From Oscillospiraceae bacterium (GTDB taxonomy: Bacteria; Bacillota; Clostridia; UBA1212; UBA1255), in NCBI GenBank assembly GCA_015069165.1, contig SVJD01000020.1, forward strand, positions 1 through 36,979: a DNA stretch of 36,979 bases, in the 5' to 3' direction. The notes under the pieces are model-generated. The model was not told where the DNA came from. It ran no database searches and saw only the letters and a list, made by a program, of their open reading frames with translations. The translations under genes were made by a program, and so were the position numbers. Below are positions 15,277 through 24,760 of the stretch, piece after piece (the first letter of the stretch is position 1; each line of letters begins with the position of its first letter).

Positions 15277-15927
15277 TTATTTTGCACTATCTATACGGTC
15301 GCAGAAAACCGTCACACGAGTAGCGCCTCCCGGTGTACAAGTATACAACACCAAGTCATACCCGCTGTTTTGAACAGAATCCACAGCATTTGGATTTAGC
15401 GTATCCAGGCGTTTTAAAATGTATCGATTTTCCAAACCTTCCATATCCGTAAATACGATCTCTGCGCCTTCTTTTAACGATGATAACCTACCAAAATGTG
15501 AGTTATAGTTATGTGCGGCAATTACCAAATCGTCTGTTCCTGTTGAACCGAATTGACGGCAAGGAGCAACTTTCAATCGGCTATAATCCCATTCAGCCAT
15601 AACCGGCAATTCTAAATCCAAATCGGGTACAGAAAGATAACCGATGTATCCATATCCGTCAATTACCACCACAGGCATTTCAGTCGGAATAACTTCCTGC
15701 GGCTCAGAAGTAGCTGTTTCCTCTGTTTTTGTTTCCTCATCAATATCAGTTGGCTTTGCCGTAGGAGTTCTTTCCTCTGCAATAGCGGATTGAATCTTAT
15801 CCATCAGCAACTCGGTTTGCTGACCTGCGCGGCGATCTTCATATTCGTTGTAAAGGAAAAGGAGCAGTGCTGACAAAAACAGCACTACCCCTATGGTTAC
15901 TAAAATAATGCCGATTTTTTTAGGCAT
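15277..15927 (-). CDS. Sortase of the fibre operon
   Basis: 216 residues, ATG 15927 with AAAGGAG upstream, overlapping the substrate gene by 8 bp. An N-terminal membrane helix (about 5-27) is followed by a Thr/Glu-rich stalk and the sortase barrel (about 90-216). The catalytic triad is visible: His139 in VIAAHNYNSHFG, Cys197 in LYTCTPGG and Arg204 in ATRVTVFCDR. It cleaves sorting signals and links surface proteins to peptidoglycan. The immediate upstream partner ends in LIQTG, so the two are very likely enzyme and substrate. The class was not settled: class D/E-like is plausible from the length and single N-terminal helix. Confidence 0.88.
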   Translation of the reverse strand: MPKKIGIILVTIGVVLFLSALLLFLYNEYEDRRAGQQTELLMDKIQSAIAEERTPTAKPTDIDEETKTEETATSEPQEVIPTEMPVVVIDGYGYIGYLSVPDLDLELPVMAEWDYSRLKVAPCRQFGSTGTDDLVIAAHNYNSHFGRLSSLKEGAEIVFTDMEGLENRYILKRLDTLNPNAVDSVQNSGYDLVLYTCTPGGATRVTVFCDRIDSAK

Positions 15928-17158
15928 TTTTATTCTCCTTTTTCTTGCGCATCATCATCATAATAATACCGAATAAAATCATCAGCACACCCAAACTACC
16001 GAGTACCATAATCGGCCAATTAAGCTGACCTGTTTGAATAAGGGTTGCTGTATTTGTAATTGTTACCACATCACCATTTGCGCGGTAAGAAGGCGTATAG
16101 CCTTTCGGAATACCGGTTTCCAAAACGCTCCAGTCACCGTTTCCGTCTAAACCTTCCCATGAATAAGTCCAATTATTCCACTCGCCCAAAGTAACCTTTT
16201 CCACAGCCTTATCGCCGTTATAAAGAGTCACACTCACAAACTCAGGGCGCAGACCGCTCTTGTCATTTTCGTCAGACCAAGTCTTTTTTACTGTCAAATC
16301 TTTCGGCTCCGGTTCCGGAATCGGTTCGTAGTCCATATGGTTTGTAACAAACACCCTGTTATCTTCTGTCTTGTAGGTAACTTCATATCCGTTAGGAATC
16401 TCCTCCTCTACAGACCATTGATAACGATCATCCAAATCATCCCAAGTATACGTCCACTGGTTACTCTCGTTTAGTTCAACATCTTCAAATTGCTCACCAT
16501 CACGGAGCAGATGAACTGTTACACTGTCCGGTCTTTCCGGGTAACCATTGTCTTCCCAAATCTTATGAACAGTAAGCTTTTCAAACTCAATGCATTCAGC
16601 TAAAAACACCCAGTCAACTTCACCTACTCGATTCGCATACTCATTACCAAGCTCAATAGGCACATCAAGTTCAACTTTAAGATTCAAACTTTCGCCCTTG
16701 ATCAAAGTTCCCAATAATACATTGTTTACCAAAGCACCGGCTTCATCGGGAGAAGCATCGTAAATAAGTTCTTCTCCGTTATATATGCGCATAGTCAACT
16801 GTGAGAGAAAATCCTGCATGGTAGCTACCGTTTCTACACTCTGACCGGCTACGCCGTCAGACAAAGGGTTTTCGTTTTCATCGTGAACAACTGCTCTCAT
16901 GTACAGCTTGATGTAATCACAATCGCTTGCTTCATTTTTAATTTGAATTTCCTCAGTCAACTTGTCACCGGGCATAATACCCTTAAAGTTGTCAAATAAG
17001 TCGCTGGCAGTATATTGGCTGCCGGGTTTGAATTCGAATCCTTCCTGTGCGCCCTTGAATACGATGACGGAATCTTCCGCCAAAACGGTTACACCAAGAT
17101 TTAAAAGCATCCCCAACACCAGGAGGAGAGAATATAATCTTCTAAACATTCTTTTCAT
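15920..17158 (-). CDS. LPXTG-type surface protein: TasA-like N-terminus plus two Cna-B repeats
   Basis: 412 residues with a signal peptide (cut near VLAEDS, residue 28), ATG 17158 behind GAGGAGG. Residues about 30-195 look like the TasA/camelysin beta-sandwich: GIMPGDKLTEEIQIKNEASD mirrors the PG...V.NTG core of the TasA-like neighbours. Two Cna-B domains follow (about 195-275 and 287-370; VHKIWEDNGYPERPDSVTVH and VKKTWSDENDKSGLRPEFVS). The C-terminus is a sorting signal, LIQTGQLNWP (from residue 373), a hydrophobic span and the tail RKKKENKNA. Position two of the motif is Ile instead of Pro. It is probably the covalent wall anchor of the fibre, processed by the sortase encoded next to it. 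Confidence 0.85.
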   Translation of the reverse strand: MKRMFRRLYSLLLVLGMLLNLGVTVLAEDSVIVFKGAQEGFEFKPGSQYTASDLFDNFKGIMPGDKLTEEIQIKNEASDCDYIKLYMRAVVHDENENPLSDGVAGQSVETVATMQDFLSQLTMRIYNGEELIYDASPDEAGALVNNVLLGTLIKGESLNLKVELDVPIELGNEYANRVGEVDWVFLAECIEFEKLTVHKIWEDNGYPERPDSVTVHLLRDGEQFEDVELNESNQWTYTWDDLDDRYQWSVEEEIPNGYEVTYKTEDNRVFVTNHMDYEPIPEPEPKDLTVKKTWSDENDKSGLRPEFVSVTLYNGDKAVEKVTLGEWNNWTYSWEGLDGNGDWSVLETGIPKGYTPSYRANGDVVTITNTATLIQTGQLNWPIMVLGSLGVLMILFGIIMMMMRKKKENKNA

Positions 17159-17170
17159 TTAAAAACCTCC

Positions 17171-17788
17171 TCACTCAGCTTTCTGAACAAGCTTGCCCTC
17201 ATCAATATGAAGTCCGCTGCTCGGTTCCCATTCTTCTGAAAACATACTGTCCGGTTTGCTCTGGAGACCGGAACCAATTATCTCCACATTCAAATAGTAG
17301 CCCTCCGGAGCATTTGCAACATAACTACATTCATTAATCAATATGCCTGTATTGCAATTATTTACATCTTCTTGTATTGATTTAACCGGCATATACCAGT
17401 AATAAAACCCGTCTTCACCTTTAAGCCAACCGTTTTCGTCAGCAACATTTATGTTTATCGCGTAATCTGTTCCTGCAACAGGAGCCTGACCATAGACATT
17501 TCCGTCAGCATCCTGCCATGTCACGATTACAGCCGCACGAATCCATGCAGTAGTGTCACCGGTATTCTTGATGGATACATTTTTCTTTGTGTTTCCATCC
17601 AAAGTTTCTTCAACCTCGGTTGTTACCTCACTGGGATTAAATAGATTACTAATCGGACCTTCACTAACTATAATGAAAGATACGGTTCCGACAACTGTTA
17701 CTGTAAAAAGTAAAATCAGTAATACATATAATGCTGTAAATTTTCTCACTTTTCCGGGAGATACTCTATGATTTTTTACTCGATTCAT
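17171..17788 (-). CDS. TasA/camelysin-like protein with variant signal region
   Basis: 205 residues, ATG 17788 with GGGGG upstream. The N-terminus is basic and then hydrophobic (about 20-45) and ends VGTVSFIIVSEGPISNLF. It lines up with the GTLAYFT...-type SipW signals of its neighbours, but lacks the usual Ala-Tyr-Phe cleavage context, so it may stay anchored or be cut elsewhere. The mature part has the family core KKNVSIKNTGDTTAWIRAAV and a DGFYYWYMPVK motif comparable to EWWYYNVPV in the 21053 gene. It lies 19 bp after the adhesin and 12 bp before the LIQTG protein. A minor subunit or adaptor is likely; function is inferred from context. Confidence 0.7.
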   Translation of the reverse strand: MNRVKNHRVSPGKVRKFTALYVLLILLFTVTVVGTVSFIIVSEGPISNLFNPSEVTTEVEETLDGNTKKNVSIKNTGDTTAWIRAAVIVTWQDADGNVYGQAPVAGTDYAININVADENGWLKGEDGFYYWYMPVKSIQEDVNNCNTGILINECSYVANAPEGYYLNVEIIGSGLQSKPDSMFSEEWEPSSGLHIDEGKLVQKAE

Positions 17789-17807
17789 TTTCTATCGTGC
17801 CCCCTTC

Positions 17808-20800
17808 TTAGTTGATTACTTCGTCTGTACCGTTACGCTTTTTGATTTCACCGGGAACAAACCAGTTTTCAGCATAGCAATCACCGGAGAGCCAGGAACC
17901 ATCAGTACGACTATTTGCATAAGCCACACTTGCTTGCGCGTTCTGCGGAATATTAACATCTTTATCAGATCCGTCAACCGGATCATATCGCCAAGCCCAA
18001 TCCGTATTTTCTTCAACAGTATACGAGCCTACCGGCAATCTGCAAACAGTAACAGAGTCATTGCCGCAAATCACAACATTCATCCTTACAATTTCGTTTT
18101 CACCAATCTTACCGACTATGGTATATATAGTACTCTGCTGTTCATCGCTGTCATGATCTATATCTTCTATACCGGTCTTGGTAATAGTCAAATTAAATCT
18201 CTGTTGATTTTTTACAATAATACTATTGGCACCAATATCCCCGACTGTCCATGTATAGTTAATATCAAATGCGTTCGGTGTATCTGACGTAGTACAATTT
18301 ACAGCTGTAAACATCGGGGCATCAAAACTACCATTCTGCGTATCCGGATTTGCTTCTTTCAACGTAAAAGTCATATTAACAGGAACTCTCGGAATCATTA
18401 CTGATTCGTCGTGACCTAATTGGAAGCTTCCGTTGTTTGTCAAAGAAACCGCGCCGCCTGATTTATCAGTTGCAGAAATTGCATTTTCCCCTGTTTCCAT
18501 AATCTGTTTAGTGAAATTAAGGTAAAAATCAAACTTCTTGTTAGGTTCTATCAATCCCTGAGTCCCATTAACCACCTGCTTTTCAATTGTCAAGGGCTGT
18601 GTTTTTATATAGTTGACAAACGCAAATTCAATACTCAAATTCGATTGAATAACCTCTGTGTCTGTTTTATCACCATATTCATATTGAGTTGCCGTTCCTC
18701 TGTTCACCGAAACTGTACTTTGCGTATAAATATAGTCATCATTCGGAGTCAATTCAACAATATAAACATTTGTAAAACGAGGAATGTCAACGAATCGGGC
18801 CATCCATCCGCTTTTCAATTCAAACTGACCATTTCCATCCGTATACTGCATTTCCGCAGGAGCACCATCACCTGTCAGTGTATATGGCGCATTTTTATAT
18901 ACGCTAAAATCAGTCGCATCACCATTGTCGTCTGTATCCGGAGCTGTGAAAATAACAAAATCATACATAACATCAGGTGTAACAGATAACTCTTCGCCTT
19001 CATGATTTACTAAGTCTTTGCTTACACTAACACTGTTTGAAGGAATTACAGGCAGATTAAAGTTCAAATAACAGTTAGAAACACCACTGTGTCTTTCCAA
19101 ATAGAAAACCTTAATGTTATGCATCTGATCCCCTTGTAAATTTTGCAAAACGGAACTGGTTTCTCTTAAAGCCTCTCCGTTATCCCATTTGTATGTTTGA
19201 TAATAGCCACCGTGAGCAGCATCCAACTGTGTATATCTGTTAATATAAAGAGCGCCTGTAGTTAAGTTAAAGCTACCTGAGATATGAGTGTGACCACCGC
19301 CGATATCCAAAACCAGCTTATCATCAATAAATACCCAAAGGTCGTCATCACCGGTAAAGTTAAAAATCATATCCTGTCCGTTAAGCTTTTTATCAGCAGG
19401 AAGATAGAAATCACAAGCAAGCTGGAGTCCAAAATGCATATTAACAGTACTGCTGGGACTTGTAGTTTCGGTATGATCAATAGAAGTAGAATATTGGGCT
19501 TGCATTAGCTTAAAGCCTGAATTCAACTTATTTACCCACTCTTGCTGGCTGATAGGTGTGTAATCGGGATTTGTATATGAGTTATTAATATCCACAAACG
19601 GATAAAAACCTGCATTACCTTGTTGTTTTCCTTCAACATCGCTAATTGCCGTATCTGACGGTGCAAGCGACTGTTTATATAGCTCAATCGTCTTATTTTG
19701 TACGTTATACTGTGCATGATTTAACGAAGAGTTATAAGTATAATAGCCCGTGTTTTCATTATAAATAAATTGAAAATTCACATCCTCATAAACAGTTTTT
19801 CCGCTTACCGGATTTGTTGAGAACAAATCAACATTATGACTTTGTGACATAACAGGCAGACCATTTACCAATTCCGGTTTTACAATACCCATCAAAGCAG
19901 TGTCTCCACCTGAGTTAACACCTTTATTCGAAGTCTCTGTAGGCGGGGCATTCCATCCAAAGTTTGTCAATCCACCTTTTGCATTTACACCCTGCGCCGT
20001 ACCATGAAAGGCAAAATAATTACCGCCTAAACTTTCATAATAACTGTTGAATGCATAGCCATCATAATCATAAAGAGTTATTGGTAAGCTCTTTATGGAA
20101 TAACCCTCCGGCAGATTATCTATCAACAAGTCAGATTGTTCGTCCGCACCATCCTTTTCAGCATAAGTTGCAACGGAACACAACGTTACGTTTACAGTCG
20201 CATTTGTACTATTAACTTTATAACTGAACTTTACAGACTTTCCCTCTGTTCCTTCCTTAAGGACAGCAAAGTTAGAGTATTCCGTGGACGTACCATTTCC
20301 GGGACGTGACATTCCCCAAAACCAATACCATATATCAGTACCTGTATTCCCGGGTCTGCTACTCCAACTACCATTACTACCTGCAAATCTAATGGCCATA
20401 CCGGGAGAAGCATATATAATGATGTCCACAGTCCCGGAACCTGTAGGATTAGCAATATTTTGGCTATTAGATTTGAAAGTGCTTCCTACGAAATTTTGAA
20501 AAGTATTACTTCCGGGATCAGTAACGTTTGTTATTACTCTGGTTTCGGTAGCTTTAAGCGGCACATTTGTAATATTACTGCCAAGCACATAGTTGTAAAT
20601 CACGGGGTCCTTAACCGTAATTTCGACTATCTTACCATCGTTAAATAAAATGGTAAGGGTATGTTCAGAACCGAAAGGTCCCGGAGCTTTGAGTTCCCAG
20701 TCAGAGTCAATTTTTGTTATCGTCAATATGTCGGGAGTGCTGAAATCCACGCTTACAACATCACTGATGTCATACGAAATACTAAGTTCTCTTAAAATAT

Positions 20801-21035
20801 CAGACAGACGTGCAACACTGTTACCTTTCACATTAAAACTCTGCTCATTGTAGGTATATATAACAAAGTAACACAACTCATCAGCGGCATTTTCTTCAAT
20901 GTTTTCAGTTTGCAAAGAGCCAAGCGAAGCGGTAACATCGCCTGCGCTGTTTGTAGCAGCCAAAGAAGTGAGAAAACTGTTTATAATTATCAAGTAAACG
21001 AGCATCAGAGCTGTTAATTGTTTAATCTTTTTCAT
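17808..21035 (-). CDS. Large fibro-slime-domain adhesin
   Basis: 1075 residues, ATG 21035 behind AAGGAG, with a conventional signal peptide (cut near SLAATN, residue 27). Residues about 540-665 form a fibro-slime/PA14-like domain: NFTGDDDLWVFIDDKLVLDI, then GGGHTHISGSFNL and NIKVFYLERHSG. The N-terminal 530 residues are beta-rich with NNS/NTS-rich patches; the C-terminal part (about 670-1050) appears to be repeated Cna-B or DUF7601-like modules (SVSKDLVNHEGEEL, TIEKQVVNGTQGLIEPNKKF, NLTITKTGIEDIDHDSD). There is no LPXTG or membrane anchor at the end, so it must be held by other fibre components or released. It probably forms the adhesive element of the structure. Confidence 0.85.
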   Translation of the reverse strand: MKKIKQLTALMLVYLIIINSFLTSLAATNSAGDVTASLGSLQTENIEENAADELCYFVIYTYNEQSFNVKGNSVARLSDILRELSISYDISDVVSVDFSTPDILTITKIDSDWELKAPGPFGSEHTLTILFNDGKIVEITVKDPVIYNYVLGSNITNVPLKATETRVITNVTDPGSNTFQNFVGSTFKSNSQNIANPTGSGTVDIIIYASPGMAIRFAGSNGSWSSRPGNTGTDIWYWFWGMSRPGNGTSTEYSNFAVLKEGTEGKSVKFSYKVNSTNATVNVTLCSVATYAEKDGADEQSDLLIDNLPEGYSIKSLPITLYDYDGYAFNSYYESLGGNYFAFHGTAQGVNAKGGLTNFGWNAPPTETSNKGVNSGGDTALMGIVKPELVNGLPVMSQSHNVDLFSTNPVSGKTVYEDVNFQFIYNENTGYYTYNSSLNHAQYNVQNKTIELYKQSLAPSDTAISDVEGKQQGNAGFYPFVDINNSYTNPDYTPISQQEWVNKLNSGFKLMQAQYSTSIDHTETTSPSSTVNMHFGLQLACDFYLPADKKLNGQDMIFNFTGDDDLWVFIDDKLVLDIGGGHTHISGSFNLTTGALYINRYTQLDAAHGGYYQTYKWDNGEALRETSSVLQNLQGDQMHNIKVFYLERHSGVSNCYLNFNLPVIPSNSVSVSKDLVNHEGEELSVTPDVMYDFVIFTAPDTDDNGDATDFSVYKNAPYTLTGDGAPAEMQYTDGNGQFELKSGWMARFVDIPRFTNVYIVELTPNDDYIYTQSTVSVNRGTATQYEYGDKTDTEVIQSNLSIEFAFVNYIKTQPLTIEKQVVNGTQGLIEPNKKFDFYLNFTKQIMETGENAISATDKSGGAVSLTNNGSFQLGHDESVMIPRVPVNMTFTLKEANPDTQNGSFDAPMFTAVNCTTSDTPNAFDINYTWTVGDIGANSIIVKNQQRFNLTITKTGIEDIDHDSDEQQSTIYTIVGKIGENEIVRMNVVICGNDSVTVCRLPVGSYTVEENTDWAWRYDPVDGSDKDVNIPQNAQASVAYANSRTDGSWLSGDCYAENWFVPGEIKKRNGTDEVIN

Positions 21036-21052
21036 TCTGTTTTTCTCCTTCC

Positions 21053-21640
21053 TTATTCAACAGGCCAACCGGCAGCTTCCATAACATTACTGCCATTGTT
21101 AGCAGTCTGGACACCTTGAGCTTTCACTGTAATCTCAACGGTGCAGTTTTGATATTCATTGGTAATATTCGAGCCGTCAAAAACGACTTCTGTAAAGAAC
21201 GCTTCTGTCGAAGCACCCACTTCAACAGGAACGTTGTAATACCACCATTCACCGTCATCGTCTTTTCGAAGCCAACTCTCATCATTCATAGTCAGAGTAA
21301 CAATGCTTGTTAAAGTTTCCGGAGACAGCTCCATAATACCGCCATCAGCTCCGGTTACAACGACTTCAAATTTCGCACGGATATATGCTTCTGCCTCTAT
21401 ATTTTTCACTGTTGCGATTTTACTTACAGTCGCCCCCGGCATCACCGCGATAGGATTATCCTTTGGATAAGGAACAAGTCCGTTCTCTGTCTCTTGCCAT
21501 TCCTCAATCTGAATGTCCACAGCATTTGTCGTAATCACATTATGAACCTCATCTTCGGAGGTAAAGTAAGCCAATGTTCCTGAAGCAATAATAGATACAC
21601 ACATAACTACTGCTGCCAGGAGTAAAATTTTCCTTTTCAT
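21053..21640 (-). CDS. TasA/camelysin-like fibre protein with SipW-type signal
   Basis: 195 residues, ATG 21640 with GAGGAG upstream. The signal sequence ends ASGTLAYFTSEDEVHNVITT, the SipW-dependent signature (GTLAYFxxxD). The mature chain contains the fold's conserved strand IAVMPGATVSKIATVKNIEA and YIRAKFEVVV. In Bacillus such proteins form matrix fibres or cell-surface camelysin. It is preceded by the hairpin-filled 162-bp gap and is 17 bp before the adhesin gene, so it is probably made together with the adhesin and less than the gene before the hairpins. Confidence 0.85.
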   Translation of the reverse strand: MKRKILLLAAVVMCVSIIASGTLAYFTSEDEVHNVITTNAVDIQIEEWQETENGLVPYPKDNPIAVMPGATVSKIATVKNIEAEAYIRAKFEVVVTGADGGIMELSPETLTSIVTLTMNDESWLRKDDDGEWWYYNVPVEVGASTEAFFTEVVFDGSNITNEYQNCTVEITVKAQGVQTANNGSNVMEAAGWPVE

Positions 21641-21696
21641 ATATCTACTCCTCTCGATCTTCTGCTTATATCGAAAAAGATGTTTTTATGGTTTAT

Positions 21697-21775
21697 TATG
21701 GCATTCGCCATATGAGAACATCCGAAGAATTATACTTCGGGTACTCTCATACGGCTCAATCCCCTGAGGGGATTG
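21697..21775. other. Three consecutive RNA hairpins between two fibre genes
   Basis: Stem 1: TATGGC/GCCATA around ATTC (21697-21712). Stem 2: TATGAGA...CCGAAG paired with CTTCGG...TCTCATA (21711-21751). Stem 3: CAATCCCC/GGGGATTG around TGA (21757-21775). None has a U-run in the direction of the operon, so they look like mRNA processing or 3'-end stabilising structures and not simple terminators. They directly follow the 246-residue TasA-like gene, pointing to differential expression across this gap. Confidence 0.75.
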
Positions 21776-21802
21776 AACCATATATTTTTAATTATGACTA
21801 AA

Positions 21803-22543
21803 TTAGTCTTTGTTAACAAAAGTCTGGTCGTGAGCAACTTCATCCCAATCTACTGTAGCTGTATATGCAGCATCAGCAGGATCACCAAAAGCTGTATTCA
21901 ATGCTTCATAAGCGTCAGCAAAACCTGCAGCTTGTGTACCTTCTGCTGCAACATAGATGTACCAATTGTCGCCCAAAGCAGCTTTGAGTGCTGTAATATC
22001 TTCGTTTGTAGTTTCAGCATCCATCCAAACTTTGCTGATAGCATCTTCTGTATCAGCATCAGTTGCCAAAGCTTTAGTGTAAGTTACAACATAAACATTG
22101 TACTCTACATTGTCAATTGTAGTTTTGTATGTGTTGCTCTTAGTTGTGTAATCATCGTCGTCAGCCGCATCAGACCAATCCCACTTAGCTTCTTCAGCAT
22201 TAGCAAAGTCGAAATGCAAAACACCATCAGCCGCATCAAAGCTACTTGTTTCTTCCAAAATAGAAGGAATGGCAATGTGTACACGAACGTAAGCATCCTC
22301 AGAACCTGTGTTTGTTACATAGATTTCCTTTTCAATAGAGTCAACAGTTTCATCAACTGCAGGAATGAGTTCTTCAGAACCGGTATTTGCACCAAAGTCT
22401 TCCCACAAGTCAATCTCTACATTGCCTGTTGTAAAAGTATTTGTCTGAGCATCTGTGTCAGAGAAGTAAGCCAATGTGCCGCCAATAATTGCAGTAACAG
22501 CCAAAGCTAATACTACGCAGAGAGATAAAATTTTCTTTTTCAT
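21803..22543 (-). CDS. TasA-like fibre protein with SipW-type signal, candidate major subunit
   Basis: 246 residues, ATG 22543 with AAAGGA upstream. The signal ends IGGTLAYFSDTDAQTNTFTT, the most canonical SipW/TasA signal in the operon. The mature protein has the core SIEKEIYVTNTGSEDAYVRV, is strongly acidic and Ala/Asp/Thr-rich, and lacks Cys, like an abundant structural protein. It is about the length of Bacillus TasA (261). Hairpins flank the cistron on both sides (22582-22619 and 21697-21775), which would favour a stable, abundant message. The major-subunit role is inference. Confidence 0.87.
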   Translation of the reverse strand: MKKKILSLCVVLALAVTAIIGGTLAYFSDTDAQTNTFTTGNVEIDLWEDFGANTGSEELIPAVDETVDSIEKEIYVTNTGSEDAYVRVHIAIPSILEETSSFDAADGVLHFDFANAEEAKWDWSDAADDDDYTTKSNTYKTTIDNVEYNVYVVTYTKALATDADTEDAISKVWMDAETTNEDITALKAALGDNWYIYVAAEGTQAAGFADAYEALNTAFGDPADAAYTATVDWDEVAHDQTFVNKD

Positions 22544-22581
22544 AATTTTAATTCCTTTCTTTTTATGAAATTTTTTTATTT

Positions 22582-22619
22582 TTGTTAAGTTATATAAGAC
22601 GGTGTCTTTTACCTAACAA
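22582..22619. other. Intercistronic hairpin before the 246-residue fibre gene
   Basis: TTGTTAAG (22582-22589) pairs with CCTAACAA (22612-22619) and an inner AAGAC/GTCTT stem closes on a three-base loop. There is no U-run on the minus strand. It sits in the 88-bp gap between two TasA-like genes. Confidence 0.6.
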
Positions 22620-22631
22620 CAAAATCAATTA

Positions 22632-23321
22632 TTACCCAAGAGCTCCTGCTCTTGCCCATGCCTCAACATTTGTAAACTCAGTAGTTGCATTCTTATAAAG
22701 CTGAACTGCATAAGCCTTGAAGGTCAAGGTAGGTTTTTGCGTGCTGATAGCAGCCATCATATCTTCTGTTACAGAAGGCTTAACGCAAACCTGATCAGCA
22801 TCCCAGCTAATCTTATAATCATCGCCTGTATCAGCAGTTCCCATATCATCAGTATATTCGCCGGCGCCGAGTATGCCGAACTCCTTAGTTGTATCGTCTT
22901 TTCTTACTATGCGGCCGATAACGGTCACACCATTACTTTCCGGTACAACTACTTCCCAACCGGTTGTAATTGCATAAGCAATATAGTCATCAAGTGCAGG
23001 CGAAGTACTCTCGGTAATCTTGACGAACAGCCAACAACCTTCGCTTCCCTCTTCAACTTTTACCGTAGGGTTTTTCTCAATTGTGCAACCCGGAACCATC
23101 TGTGCAGTTTGGCCATCCGGCAATGTCTCACTAAGTGTAATGTCTATGTCAGATTCTGTAAAAGTATTCACCACTTCTCCGGCATCAGCAGTCAACCAAG
23201 CTATTGTACCACCGATTGCGCTACCAATAATCAAAACACACGTCAGAACCAATACCAAAGACTTGCTGCCAAATGTCCTGCGGCTGCTACGGTCATTACG
23301 TTCGTATCTGTCCTTATTCAT
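22632..23321 (-). CDS. TasA/camelysin-like protein with SipW-type signal
   Basis: 229 residues, ATG 23321 behind GGAAGGGGG. The N-terminus is longer and highly charged (MNKDRYERNDRSSRRTFG) before the hydrophobic stretch, which ends IGGTIAWLTADAGEVVNTFT, a SipW-type signal with Trp in place of Tyr. The mature part contains ITLSETLPDGQ, MVPGCTIEKNPTVKVEEGSE and a C-terminal VTEDMMAAISTQKPTLTFKA strand. It carries three Cys (in PGCTI, EGCWLF and QVCVKP), unlike the 246-residue protein, so a disulfide is possible. Probably a minor subunit or assembly factor. Confidence 0.82.
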   Translation of the reverse strand: MNKDRYERNDRSSRRTFGSKSLVLVLTCVLIIGSAIGGTIAWLTADAGEVVNTFTESDIDITLSETLPDGQTAQMVPGCTIEKNPTVKVEEGSEGCWLFVKITESTSPALDDYIAYAITTGWEVVVPESNGVTVIGRIVRKDDTTKEFGILGAGEYTDDMGTADTGDDYKISWDADQVCVKPSVTEDMMAAISTQKPTLTFKAYAVQLYKNATTEFTNVEAWARAGALG

Positions 23322-23362
23322 GTCTTGTTCCCCCTTCCATTTTTATTTTTTTATATTTCCGC

Positions 23363-23377
23363 AAGTGCACAGCACTT
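23363..23377. other. Short intercistronic hairpin
   Basis: AAGTGC (23363-23368), loop ACA, GCACTT (23372-23377), in the 73-bp gap between two TasA-like genes. It is not followed by a U-run on the minus strand. Confidence 0.5.
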
Positions 23378-23394
23378 ACAAAAAAACGATTTAA

Positions 23395-24081
23395 TTAATT
23401 TTCACCGAAAGCTGACCATGCCAAATCAGCAGTATCAAAGCCATCAGCCTGAATGGCATGAGCGTTGACAACGATCTTTACATTTGACAAATATGTCAAA
23501 TTATTATTATCGACTTCTCCGGGAATTGTTATAGTTTCAAATAAATCGTCCAATACTGTTGCATTGTCAGATTTAGCTACAATATCTTTATAACGGAATT
23601 CGTAATAACCATCCAGACCATTTTCAGATTCTGTGTAACCTTCATACAACCATGTAGCAGAATCCCAATTGCCGCAGAGTGATTGGAATAAGAAAGTCTT
23701 ATTTCCATCATCCGAATAGTACGCACTGCCCTCGCTGTAAGGCAAAGCAAGTTTTAACTGATCAATTCGTTCAACCTTAACTATCATACGAACATATGCA
23801 GCTTCACTGCCTGCATCAACTGTCACTGTAGGATCTTTGTAATAGGTGTGACCCGGAATCAATTTATACGCATTACCTTTAACTCGCGTATCATGCCCAT
23901 TTTTGTAAGTACCGTCAAGATTTACTTCTGCCTCATCTAAAGACAGTCCCACAGCACCGACTGTGAATGTATTCGTAACAACATCCCTGTCAGTCAAATA
24001 GGCAAATGTGCCAACAACAGATACCGCTACCAACAGTACCGCACACATCGACAAGAGTAATGCATTTCTTTTTTTCATCAT
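23395..24081 (-). CDS. TasA/camelysin-like protein with SipW-type signal
   Basis: 228 residues, ATG 24081 with GGAGG eight bases upstream (a second ATG follows at once). The signal ends VVGTFAYLTDRDVVTNTFTV, and the mature part continues with VGLSLDEAEV, LIPGHTYYKDPTVTVDAGSE and AAYVRMIVKV, the same layout as the other family members. It is the first substrate gene after sipW (35-bp gap). The C-terminal half (YEGYTESENGLDGYYEFRYK) differs from its paralogues, so the paralogues are diverged and not recent copies. Confidence 0.85.
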   Translation of the reverse strand: MMKKRNALLLSMCAVLLVAVSVVGTFAYLTDRDVVTNTFTVGAVGLSLDEAEVNLDGTYKNGHDTRVKGNAYKLIPGHTYYKDPTVTVDAGSEAAYVRMIVKVERIDQLKLALPYSEGSAYYSDDGNKTFLFQSLCGNWDSATWLYEGYTESENGLDGYYEFRYKDIVAKSDNATVLDDLFETITIPGEVDNNNLTYLSNVKIVVNAHAIQADGFDTADLAWSAFGEN

Positions 24082-24116
24082 TTTAATTTCCTCCTCAATA
24101 AATTTATATCGGAAGC

Positions 24117-24659
24117 CTACTCGGCTTTCTCATCATTTTCATCTTGTTTCGTTTTTTCTTCCTTGCCAAACAAATCAGGCAGAAAAACTAACAAAAGCAA
24201 GACTGCTCCGGCAGAAATCGCAATGTACATACCGGGCGGATTTTGAATATAATTAGCAACATAACCCAACTTCGGAATTTCGAAGACAGGTGTGCCGATT
24301 ACATTTTTATAATGTACAAGAGAACCATCCTCGGTTTTATTTGCATCACCTTTTGTTTTAAAGCGAATAACACCGGAATCATTCTCATCAGGAACAATTT
24401 CCACAACGCGATGGGTTGCAACAGTATCCTCATCCATCATAAAAGTTATTACATCACCCTTTTTCAATTCAAAAGGGTCGACATCCTTTACATAAATCAA
24501 AGACCCAACGCTGTAGTTTGGCTCCATACTACCGGACAATACGCTAAAAACCTGCAATCCGACAACTCTTGCTCCTACCAACAGGAGCACCAAAACAACA
24601 ACAATTGCCACAAGCACAGTAGTTACTAAATTCCAAATTTTCTTAACAGTTTTGCTCAT
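24117..24659 (-). CDS. sipW: Signal peptidase I, SipW (archaeal/ER) type
   Basis: 180 residues with two membrane helices (about 13-36 and 150-172), the usual SipW topology. The catalytic Ser44 is in VLSGSMEPNYSVGSLIYV. The usual bacterial Lys is replaced by His83 in DTVATHRVVEI, which defines the ER/SipW type, and the KGDANKTEDG element (Asp105) follows. It should process the GTLAYF-type precursors encoded downstream in the same operon. It is the first gene after a consensus promoter, so the protease is made with its clients. Confidence 0.93.
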   Translation of the reverse strand: MSKTVKKIWNLVTTVLVAIVVVLVLLLVGARVVGLQVFSVLSGSMEPNYSVGSLIYVKDVDPFELKKGDVITFMMDEDTVATHRVVEIVPDENDSGVIRFKTKGDANKTEDGSLVHYKNVIGTPVFEIPKLGYVANYIQNPPGMYIAISAGAVLLLLVFLPDLFGKEEKTKQDENDEKAE

Positions 24660-24731
24660 GACATCTTCAAGCCTTCTCTCTTTTCAGGAAAAGGACCTCC
24701 CCCCGACTCTCATTTTTAAATTTATGTGCAT

Positions 24732-24760
24732 ATTATAACAATTTGCATAAATATGGTCAA
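24732..24760 (-). promoter_or_regulatory. Sigma-A promoter of the surface-fibre operon
   Basis: On the minus strand TTGACC (24760-24755), a 17-base spacer and a perfect TATAAT (24737-24732). The leader to sipW is about 65 nt and contains a GGGGGGAGG tract near 24695-24704. No other convincing promoter was seen within the following 9.4 kb. Confidence 0.85.

Follow-up and report, generated by a model that had tools for sequence, protein, structure and literature searches.

The window, which is the entire 36,979-nucleotide stretch of contig SVJD01000020.1 that was analyzed, comes from the draft genome (1.94 Mb, 88.7% complete) of an Oscillospiraceae gut bacterium. Its minus strand carries a nine-gene operon encoding, in order, a SipW-type signal peptidase, four TasA-like proteins (TasA-like 1–4), a fibro-slime adhesin, a fifth TasA-like protein (TasA-like 5), a protein with an LIQTG sorting signal, and a sortase. 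Our data suggest that this operon encodes a pilus held together by donor strands and covalently anchored at its base, a reading to which we give a probability of about 0.64. Somewhat more cautiously, we favor the view that it represents a kind of pilus in which a TasA-like donor-strand shaft is started by an interchangeable tip adhesin and ended by a sortase-linked, acceptor-only subunit with a TasA fold, and which is widespread in gut Bacillota and Actinomycetota and also present in Saccharibacteria. This reading is built on the following computed results: the gene set and its recurrence, the TasA fold of the first domain of the LIQTG protein (AnchorN), the N-terminus of AnchorN, which is not donor-like, the sorting signal with its paired sortase, and the donor-like tail of the adhesin.

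The wall-anchor protein and its first domain

The LIQTG protein has an ordinary signal peptide that is not of the SipW type. Its first domain, AnchorN, consists of approximately 165 residues that lie outside the Cna_B domains and the sorting signal, and it is claimed by no Pfam model. The AlphaFold model of the window AnchorN had a predicted local distance difference test (pLDDT) score of 92 and a predicted template modeling (pTM) score of 0.85. When this model was compared with known structures by Foldseek, the only match below 1e-3 was TasA (5of2; probability 1.00, E 9e-4). Comparison by VIA placed 7ueg (an archaeal bundling pilus), 5of2, 8aur (the TasA fiber) and 5of1 in the lead, with Z scores of 7.6–8.0 over 130–138 residues, while the rows that followed started at a Z score of 5.9 and were mostly donor-strand pilins such as FimG, FimA and PapA. 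A Z score near 8 is weak when taken alone, but a natural fusion of a TasA-like domain and AnchorN from Lachnospiraceae gave Z scores of 9.7–9.9 in VIA with three leading TasA entries (5of1, 8aur and 5of2), all of them on the AnchorN half. With this two-domain fusion model, Foldseek alone placed no TasA entry in the top 50, although VIA did rank TasA; sequence searches of AnchorN against the PDB returned no TasA, and the likeness was seen by fold comparison alone.

The range of TasA that aligned to AnchorN starts at residues 35–43, at the point where the TasA donor strand ends (residues 28–38; PMC9674648) or past it. The donor score of the first 75 amino acids had a median of 23.8 for the TasA-like proteins compared with -4.3 for the anchor proteins, and the donor motif was absent from the anchors. 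Because the structural match begins past the donor strand and the N-terminus is not donor-like, AnchorN is best seen as a TasA fold that lacks a donor strand of its own, and as a putative acceptor-only subunit able to receive a strand but not to give one.

To determine how widely AnchorN occurs, 16 genomes of the window's family and 391 genomes of its class were searched using its profile or the window's own sequence. AnchorN was found in 10 of the 16 and in 23 of the 391 genomes, and these profile searches found none in four genomes of the window's own genus. Among the same 391 genomes, proteins matching the SipW-type signal model TIGR04088 were present in 48, and 21 genomes had both (Fisher p=2e-19; this and the p values below are optimistic because the loci share ancestry). 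A sortase was also present in 22 of the 23 AnchorN genomes. The first-pass annotation had made its prediction depend on the gene set co-occurring in other genomes, and such co-occurrence was found, with AnchorN in 21 of the 48 substrate-bearing genomes; this share of nearly half is an underestimate, because one more genome (G237) was added by a sharper profile, which revealed AnchorN there together with LPKTG and a sortase. The merging of TasA and sortase machinery that the annotation had described was therefore supported, although not as a single isolated hybrid.

A TasA-like gene was located within the fetched stretch, or fused to AnchorN, at 78 of 85 AnchorN loci. At the fetched loci the operons containing AnchorN also encode SipW and proteins with SipW signals, and AnchorN mostly follows an ordinary signal peptide. 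Relatives beyond the sample were collected by a DNA pattern scan that favors one AnchorN subtype and includes some chance matches; the matches listed included named relatives in Clostridia, Erysipelotrichaceae, Coriobacteriia, Eggerthellaceae and Saccharibacteria. Within one genus, the same open reading frame joins a TasA-like domain, AnchorN, PQTG with a transmembrane stretch, and a further TasA-like domain with a SipW signal. Among the matches listed, fusions of a TasA-like domain with AnchorN were also seen in Eggerthellaceae, Lachnospiraceae and others. AnchorN and TasA-like genes were observed together in Saccharibacteria drafts (L050, L064, L071, L117), reduced genomes in which a fiber would be of interest. 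Another AnchorN relative was seen in a 'Bacteriophage sp.' record of human fecal origin that is unverified and carries no annotation (L169, 8001–8420; MT835649.1), and it could be bacterial DNA or cargo; searches of viral contigs and of plasmids returned no match.

If the TasA-like proteins were secreted as free matrix fibers of the TasA/BsaA type, the LIQTG protein would simply be a Cna_B surface protein of the usual kind, encoded in the same operon but with no physical link to the fiber. This would agree with the behavior of BsaA of Clostridium perfringens, which polymerizes alone, is found mostly in the medium and is not affected by the loss of SrtB (PMC7395162), and with the window TasA-like subunits, in which no sorting signals were found. 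However, we consider free fibers quite improbable here, given that the first domain of the LIQTG protein has a TasA fold, that AnchorN co-occurs with SipW substrates, and that it is naturally fused to TasA-like domains.

In 58 of 79 anchor proteins the C-terminus consisted of xxTG, a transmembrane stretch and K/R. Six anchors carry LI[QFD]TG followed by Q..WP, and a sortase lies directly downstream in 6/6; five of these sortases were called, and the sixth (Holdemania) is cut by the locus edge and readable over 34 residues. Three LPKTG/MPKTG anchors were likewise paired with a sortase, and anchors with PPQTG and similar motifs had no adjacent sortase at the sampled loci. The window sortase has a single, N-terminal transmembrane stretch and has kept the His, Cys and Arg residues that are also conserved in five related paired sortases. 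In a check for a class A relationship, a PDB sequence search with it returned only 4tqx and 2kw8, at E values of about 1e-5.

A conventional pilus, with the adhesin and the anchor covalently polymerized by the sortase, would account for the Cna_B and SpaA-like domains and for the VWA and GBS104-like heads described below, as commonly seen in sortase pili. Among NCBIfam models, the window sortase also scored best with that of class C (NF033745), but at 40.7, far below the cut-off of 160, and the C-terminal transmembrane stretch is missing. Sortase-assembled pili have several sorting signals and a pilin sortase, whereas the window operon has only the signal of the LIQTG protein, and the genome contains a separate class C-like pilus operon; covalent polymerization is thus very unlikely.

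Two observations were made beside these results. The window sortase gene contains a hairpin within its transmembrane codons whose stability greatly exceeds that of synonymous codings (z -6.3, the strongest such signal of the operon), which recurs in 5/6 paired sortases (z -4.3 to -6.9) and is perhaps an attenuator that keeps sortase levels low. The separate pilus operon of the same genome (L027, 8073–12003; G000:C4) has an LPETG pilin, and next to it lies a relative of the window sortase that seemingly lacks the catalytic His, Cys and Arg, is likely a pseudo-sortase, and also has a stable hairpin.

The adhesin and its C-terminal tail

The adhesin has a classical signal peptide and no sorting signal, and its last stalk domain is followed by SWLSGDCYAENWF, which copies the donor strand of TasA. 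It occupies a variable slot between TasA-like 4 and TasA-like 5. The slot proteins of relatives have in common a last stalk domain with WSWRY and the tail W[LF]xGx(4,5)Nx[FWY]; their heads were VWA domains, B-repeats, beta-helix-like repeats or unknown, with one GBS104 tip-pilin Ig domain just over the cut-off. Tails of other slot proteins (YFSHTDVVENSF, WFYDDDRKDNHF and WLTHECLVTNTF) may be compared with the donor strands YLTDRDVVTNTF and YFSDTDAQTNTF of the TasA-like proteins.

The tails were scored using a position matrix made from TasA-like N-termini only. Compared with the other proteins encoded at their loci, they scored higher (Mann-Whitney p=6e-9); the control set of this comparison included adhesins of other loci, and the scoring was run again on sets divided into operon and non-operon proteins. 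Compared with their own shuffles, 16/40 tails and 7/85 controls fell below p 0.05 (combined p=4e-12). Of 88 large proteins encoded in such operons, 30 carried the tail motif, compared with 0 of 127 other proteins (p=7e-14), a count that is partly descriptive because the motif was written after some tails had been viewed. The residue at tail position 2, L or F, tended to agree with the donor type of the same locus (p=0.001, with no correction for kinship). When a profile of the terminal stalk domain and tail (TipDock) was run over the 391 genomes, 19 matches extended into the tail. Sixteen lie next to TasA-like genes and 3 elsewhere in operon-bearing genomes, and several of the matches fell in genomes without AnchorN matches.

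Four loci (L170, L173, L174 (G002:C91) and L176), one of them in the window's genus, have TasA-like genes and a tail-bearing adhesin with no AnchorN in the fetched stretch. At three others (L171, L172 and L175; G010, G013 and G015), giant tail-bearing adhesins lie apart from the fiber operon of the same genome and may dock in trans.

The tail comes immediately after the final strand of a SpaA-like domain and lies within the shared WSWRY domain context. This could mean that it belongs to the adhesin's stalk domain as its last strand, or that a different enzyme recognizes it as a signal, with the adhesin attached to the fiber by other means. We regard this as possible but doubtful, since the tail lies beyond the usual domain end (F.N.R), keeps the 12–13 residue spacing of the TasA donor strand and is confined to TasA-like operons, and since its position 2 tends to match the local donor type. 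As the adhesin has no sorting signal and ends in a donor-strand copy, it is probably plugged into the fiber tip rather than covalently held. The first-pass annotation had proposed fibers that are tethered to peptidoglycan and carry this adhesin; the tethering is supported by the predicted TasA fold of AnchorN without a donor strand and by the co-occurrence data, while the adhesin would be joined by strand insertion and not by a covalent bond.

The operon, its subunits and a possibly transferred relative

The gene coordinates and family scans bore out the nine genes on one strand that the first-pass annotation had described, and Pfam and NCBIfam scans confirmed a signal peptidase match for SipW, a fibro-slime match for the adhesin, Cna_B domains in the LIQTG protein and a sortase, which is intact (Table 1). 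The gene set was found again in many genomes, which makes it more than chance. Adjacent genes are separated by anything from an 8-base overlap to a 162-base gap, so that their description as short or overlapping was slightly generous. A sigma-70-like site with an extended -10 region lies upstream of sipW, where a promoter had been predicted, and was the best among 41 consensus matches in the region. The upstream neighbor of the operon is a UvrD-like helicase with no evident connection to the fiber genes.

Table 1. Features of the fiber operon in the window.
Feature	Position	Strand	Evidence
Promoter-like site TTGACC-17-TATAAT, TG before -10	24732..24760	-	Consensus match only
SipW-type signal peptidase	24117..24659	-	TIGR02228 104.8 bits, cut-off 51.85; NF046067 E 3.9e-33, below cut-off
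TasA-like subunit 1	23395..24081	-	Signal GTFAYLT; donor strand YLTDRDVVTNTF; PF12389 and TIGR04088 over cut-off
TasA-like subunit 2	22632..23321	-	Signal GTIAWLTA; donor strand WLTADAGEVVNTF; no Pfam match; placed by similarity to relatives
TasA-like subunit 3	21803..22543	-	Signal GGTLAYFS; donor strand YFSDTDAQTNTF; PF12389 and TIGR04088 over cut-off
TasA-like subunit 4	21053..21640	-	Signal GTLAYFT; donor strand YFTSEDEVHNVI; TIGR04088 over cut-off, PF12389 just below
Fibro-slime adhesin, 1075 amino acids	17808..21035	-	TIGR02148 over cut-off; DUF7601/DUF5979 stalk domains
TipDock, terminal stalk domain and tail of adhesin (profile A7)	17856..18074	-	E 1.4e-27; window sequence is one row of the profile
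Putative C-terminal donor-strand mimic of adhesin, WLSGDCYAENWF	17859..17894	-	TasA donor-strand spacing
TasA-like subunit 5 (BsaA-like variant)	17171..17788	-	TIGR04090 E 9.2e-5, below cut-off
Wall-anchor (LIQTG) protein, 412 amino acids	15920..17158	-	AnchorN, two Cna_B domains, LIQTG sorting signal
AnchorN, domain of TasA fold lacking a donor strand, putative acceptor-only base	16583..17077	-	AlphaFold pLDDT 92, pTM 0.85; Foldseek; VIA
LIQTG motif of sorting signal	16028..16042	-	Followed by transmembrane stretch and RKKK tail
Dedicated sortase, 216 amino acids	15277..15927	-	PF04203 over cut-off
Hairpin inside sortase gene	15860..15892	-	13 pairs, then T-rich stretch

The window SipW scored 114.6 against the cut-off of 190 of the Bacillus SipW equivalog (NF046067). 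Four of the TasA-like proteins had been credited with SipW signals. The cut-off of TIGR04088 (19 bits) was reached by TasA-like 1, 3 and 4, whereas TasA-like 2 fell below the model and was grouped by profile. The camelysin model PF12389 (Peptidase_M73) matched TasA-like 1 and 3; TasA-like 4 scored 20.1 against 22.5, and TasA-like 2 and 5 were unmatched. These last two are below the Pfam and NCBIfam models yet group with other TasA-like proteins in profiles made in this analysis. The whole-protein families also stayed below their cut-offs (at best 41.4 against 60 bits for TIGR04090 and 18.9 against 450 for NF046066), and by sequence the window TasA-like proteins are relatives, not orthologs, of TasA (NF046066) and BsaA (TIGR04090). 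The TapA equivalog (TIGR04087) gave only 14.2 bits against 80, for TasA-like 4, and no match to the window anchor protein. A PDB sequence search with TasA-like 3 returned no TasA match.

An N-terminal donor strand of 12–13 residues with the pattern [YFW][LF]...N.[FIV] and the TasA spacing fits window subunits 1–4; among the 146 TasA-like N-termini that were located, 130 have the N at position 10 or 11. In operons of this type, a gene of the TasA-like 5 type directly precedes the anchor gene.

An operon with near synteny to that of the window comes from another class. In Holdemania sp. Marseille-P2844 (L124) the gene order is the same, the subunits and the anchor share 59–80% protein identity with those of the window, and the DNA of the subunit genes is about 72–79% identical. 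The Holdemania adhesin matches the window adhesin over the last ~115 residues only, meaning that the head differs while the stalk and tail are kept. The simplest reading of these sequences is that the fiber operon moved between classes.

Proposed assembly and its relation to known fibers

According to a proposal based on the fiber structure, a TasA subunit has to be complemented before its own strand becomes free to extend (PMC9674648), and in Bacillus TapA supplies the first strand to TasA (PMC9674648, PMC10151520). In the proposed pilus, SipW would mature the TasA-like subunits, each with an N-terminal donor strand and a groove. The adhesin, exported by its ordinary signal peptide, would present its C-terminal donor mimic to a first TasA-like subunit for insertion into the groove, and the complemented subunit would then free its own donor strand for the next. 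Because a complemented subunit can release its strand, the fiber would grow behind the adhesin, which would stay at the tip. The last donor strand would enter the AnchorN groove, and growth would stop there because AnchorN has no donor strand to pass on. The local sortase would cleave LIQTG and join the anchor protein to the wall, with the Cna_B domains acting as a stalk. The strand insertion, the assembly order, the covalent linkage and the pairing of subunits are what we infer; the complementation rule would place the donor-only adhesin first and the acceptor-only AnchorN last, a tip-first, base-last order like that of sortase pili.

The opposite order is conceivable, with AnchorN nucleating the fiber at the wall in a TapA-like role, the fiber growing outward and the adhesin capping its end. 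TapA is a known TasA partner located near the membrane (PMC10151520), and the anchor gene adjoins that of TasA-like 5. However, TapA nucleates by donating its N-terminus, whereas the N-terminus of AnchorN is not donor-like and the tail of the adhesin is, and we consider nucleation at the wall unlikely.

Several points weigh against an anchored donor-strand pilus. The fiber, the strand insertion and the anchoring are predictions from genes and modeled folds, and the AnchorN fold was read from model scores and alignment ranges, so that the groove and the donor-strand position are putative. There is no C-terminal xxTG in 21 of the 79 anchors, of which ten are fusions with an internal PQTG and others have a membrane tail only, and one genome with two AnchorN operons (G006; L018, L019) has no detectable sortase. 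Among the candidate tail proteins, 24/40 were not below p 0.05, and the window tail alone was modestly donor-like (p=0.03, shuffling). In C. perfringens, BsaA polymerizes without the neighboring SrtB and is mostly not wall bound (PMC7395162), the fibers of Bacillus cereus are reported to be sortase-independent (PMC13082335), and the donor-only TapA of Bacillus subtilis is near the membrane (PMC10151520), which would be the opposite polarity.

The window system is similar to the B. subtilis tapA-sipW-tasA system in its SipW-processed subunits of the camelysin fold with an N-terminal donor strand (PMC9674648, PMC10151520). TapA is the donor through its N-terminus, its Ig fold is complete, and it needs no sortase; in contrast, the window has a putative acceptor-only TasA-fold protein with a sorting signal, and a putative extra donor strand at the adhesin C-terminus. 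The C. perfringens sipW-bsaABCRSD operon shares SipW, BsaA-family subunits and a nearby sortase gene, but its SrtB is dispensable for BsaA polymers and pellicles, and the polymers are not tightly wall bound (PMC7395162). The TasA-CalY-CapP system of B. cereus likewise has SipW substrates in heteropolymers with an accessory protein; it differs in being described as sortase-independent and as using a disordered C-domain for wall attachment (PMC13082335).

Class C sortase pili (SpaA, GBS80/GBS104) resemble the window system in their VWA/GBS104-like tip heads, Cna_B stalks, sortase-attached base and proposed tip-first order, but the window shaft would be held by donor strands rather than isopeptide bonds, and a sorting signal is missing from the tip protein. 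Chaperone-usher pili (Fim, Pap) share the donor-strand shaft and the specialized tip and terminal subunits; in the window system there is no outer membrane, the tip adhesin would be donor-only and not an acceptor, and the gene calls and Pfam and NCBIfam scans found no chaperone or usher gene in the operon. Archaeal bundling pili and threads have the TasA-like donor-strand fold, with 7ueg among the top AnchorN matches, but no sortase wall anchor.

In the open-access literature, with most subscription papers outside the search, there was no report of sortase-anchored TasA-type fibers, of an adhesin with a C-terminal donor strand, or of such a Gram-positive pilus design. Because the TasA-type fibers of C. 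perfringens and B. cereus have been reported as sortase-independent, the window system would be a variant not yet described. Recent work on TasA-type fibers stresses independence from sortase. In the proposed pilus the start of the fiber, its end and its attachment to the cell would fall to three recognizable and separately deletable parts, namely a donor-only tip, a two-sided shaft and an acceptor-only base. If true, the model would unite donor-strand fibers with sortase anchoring, and would offer a functional reading for many uncharacterized proteins of gut bacteria that are labeled 'SipW-dependent', 'fibro-slime' or VWA. Such pili could then be located in genomes by two sequence markers, AnchorN and the TipDock tail.

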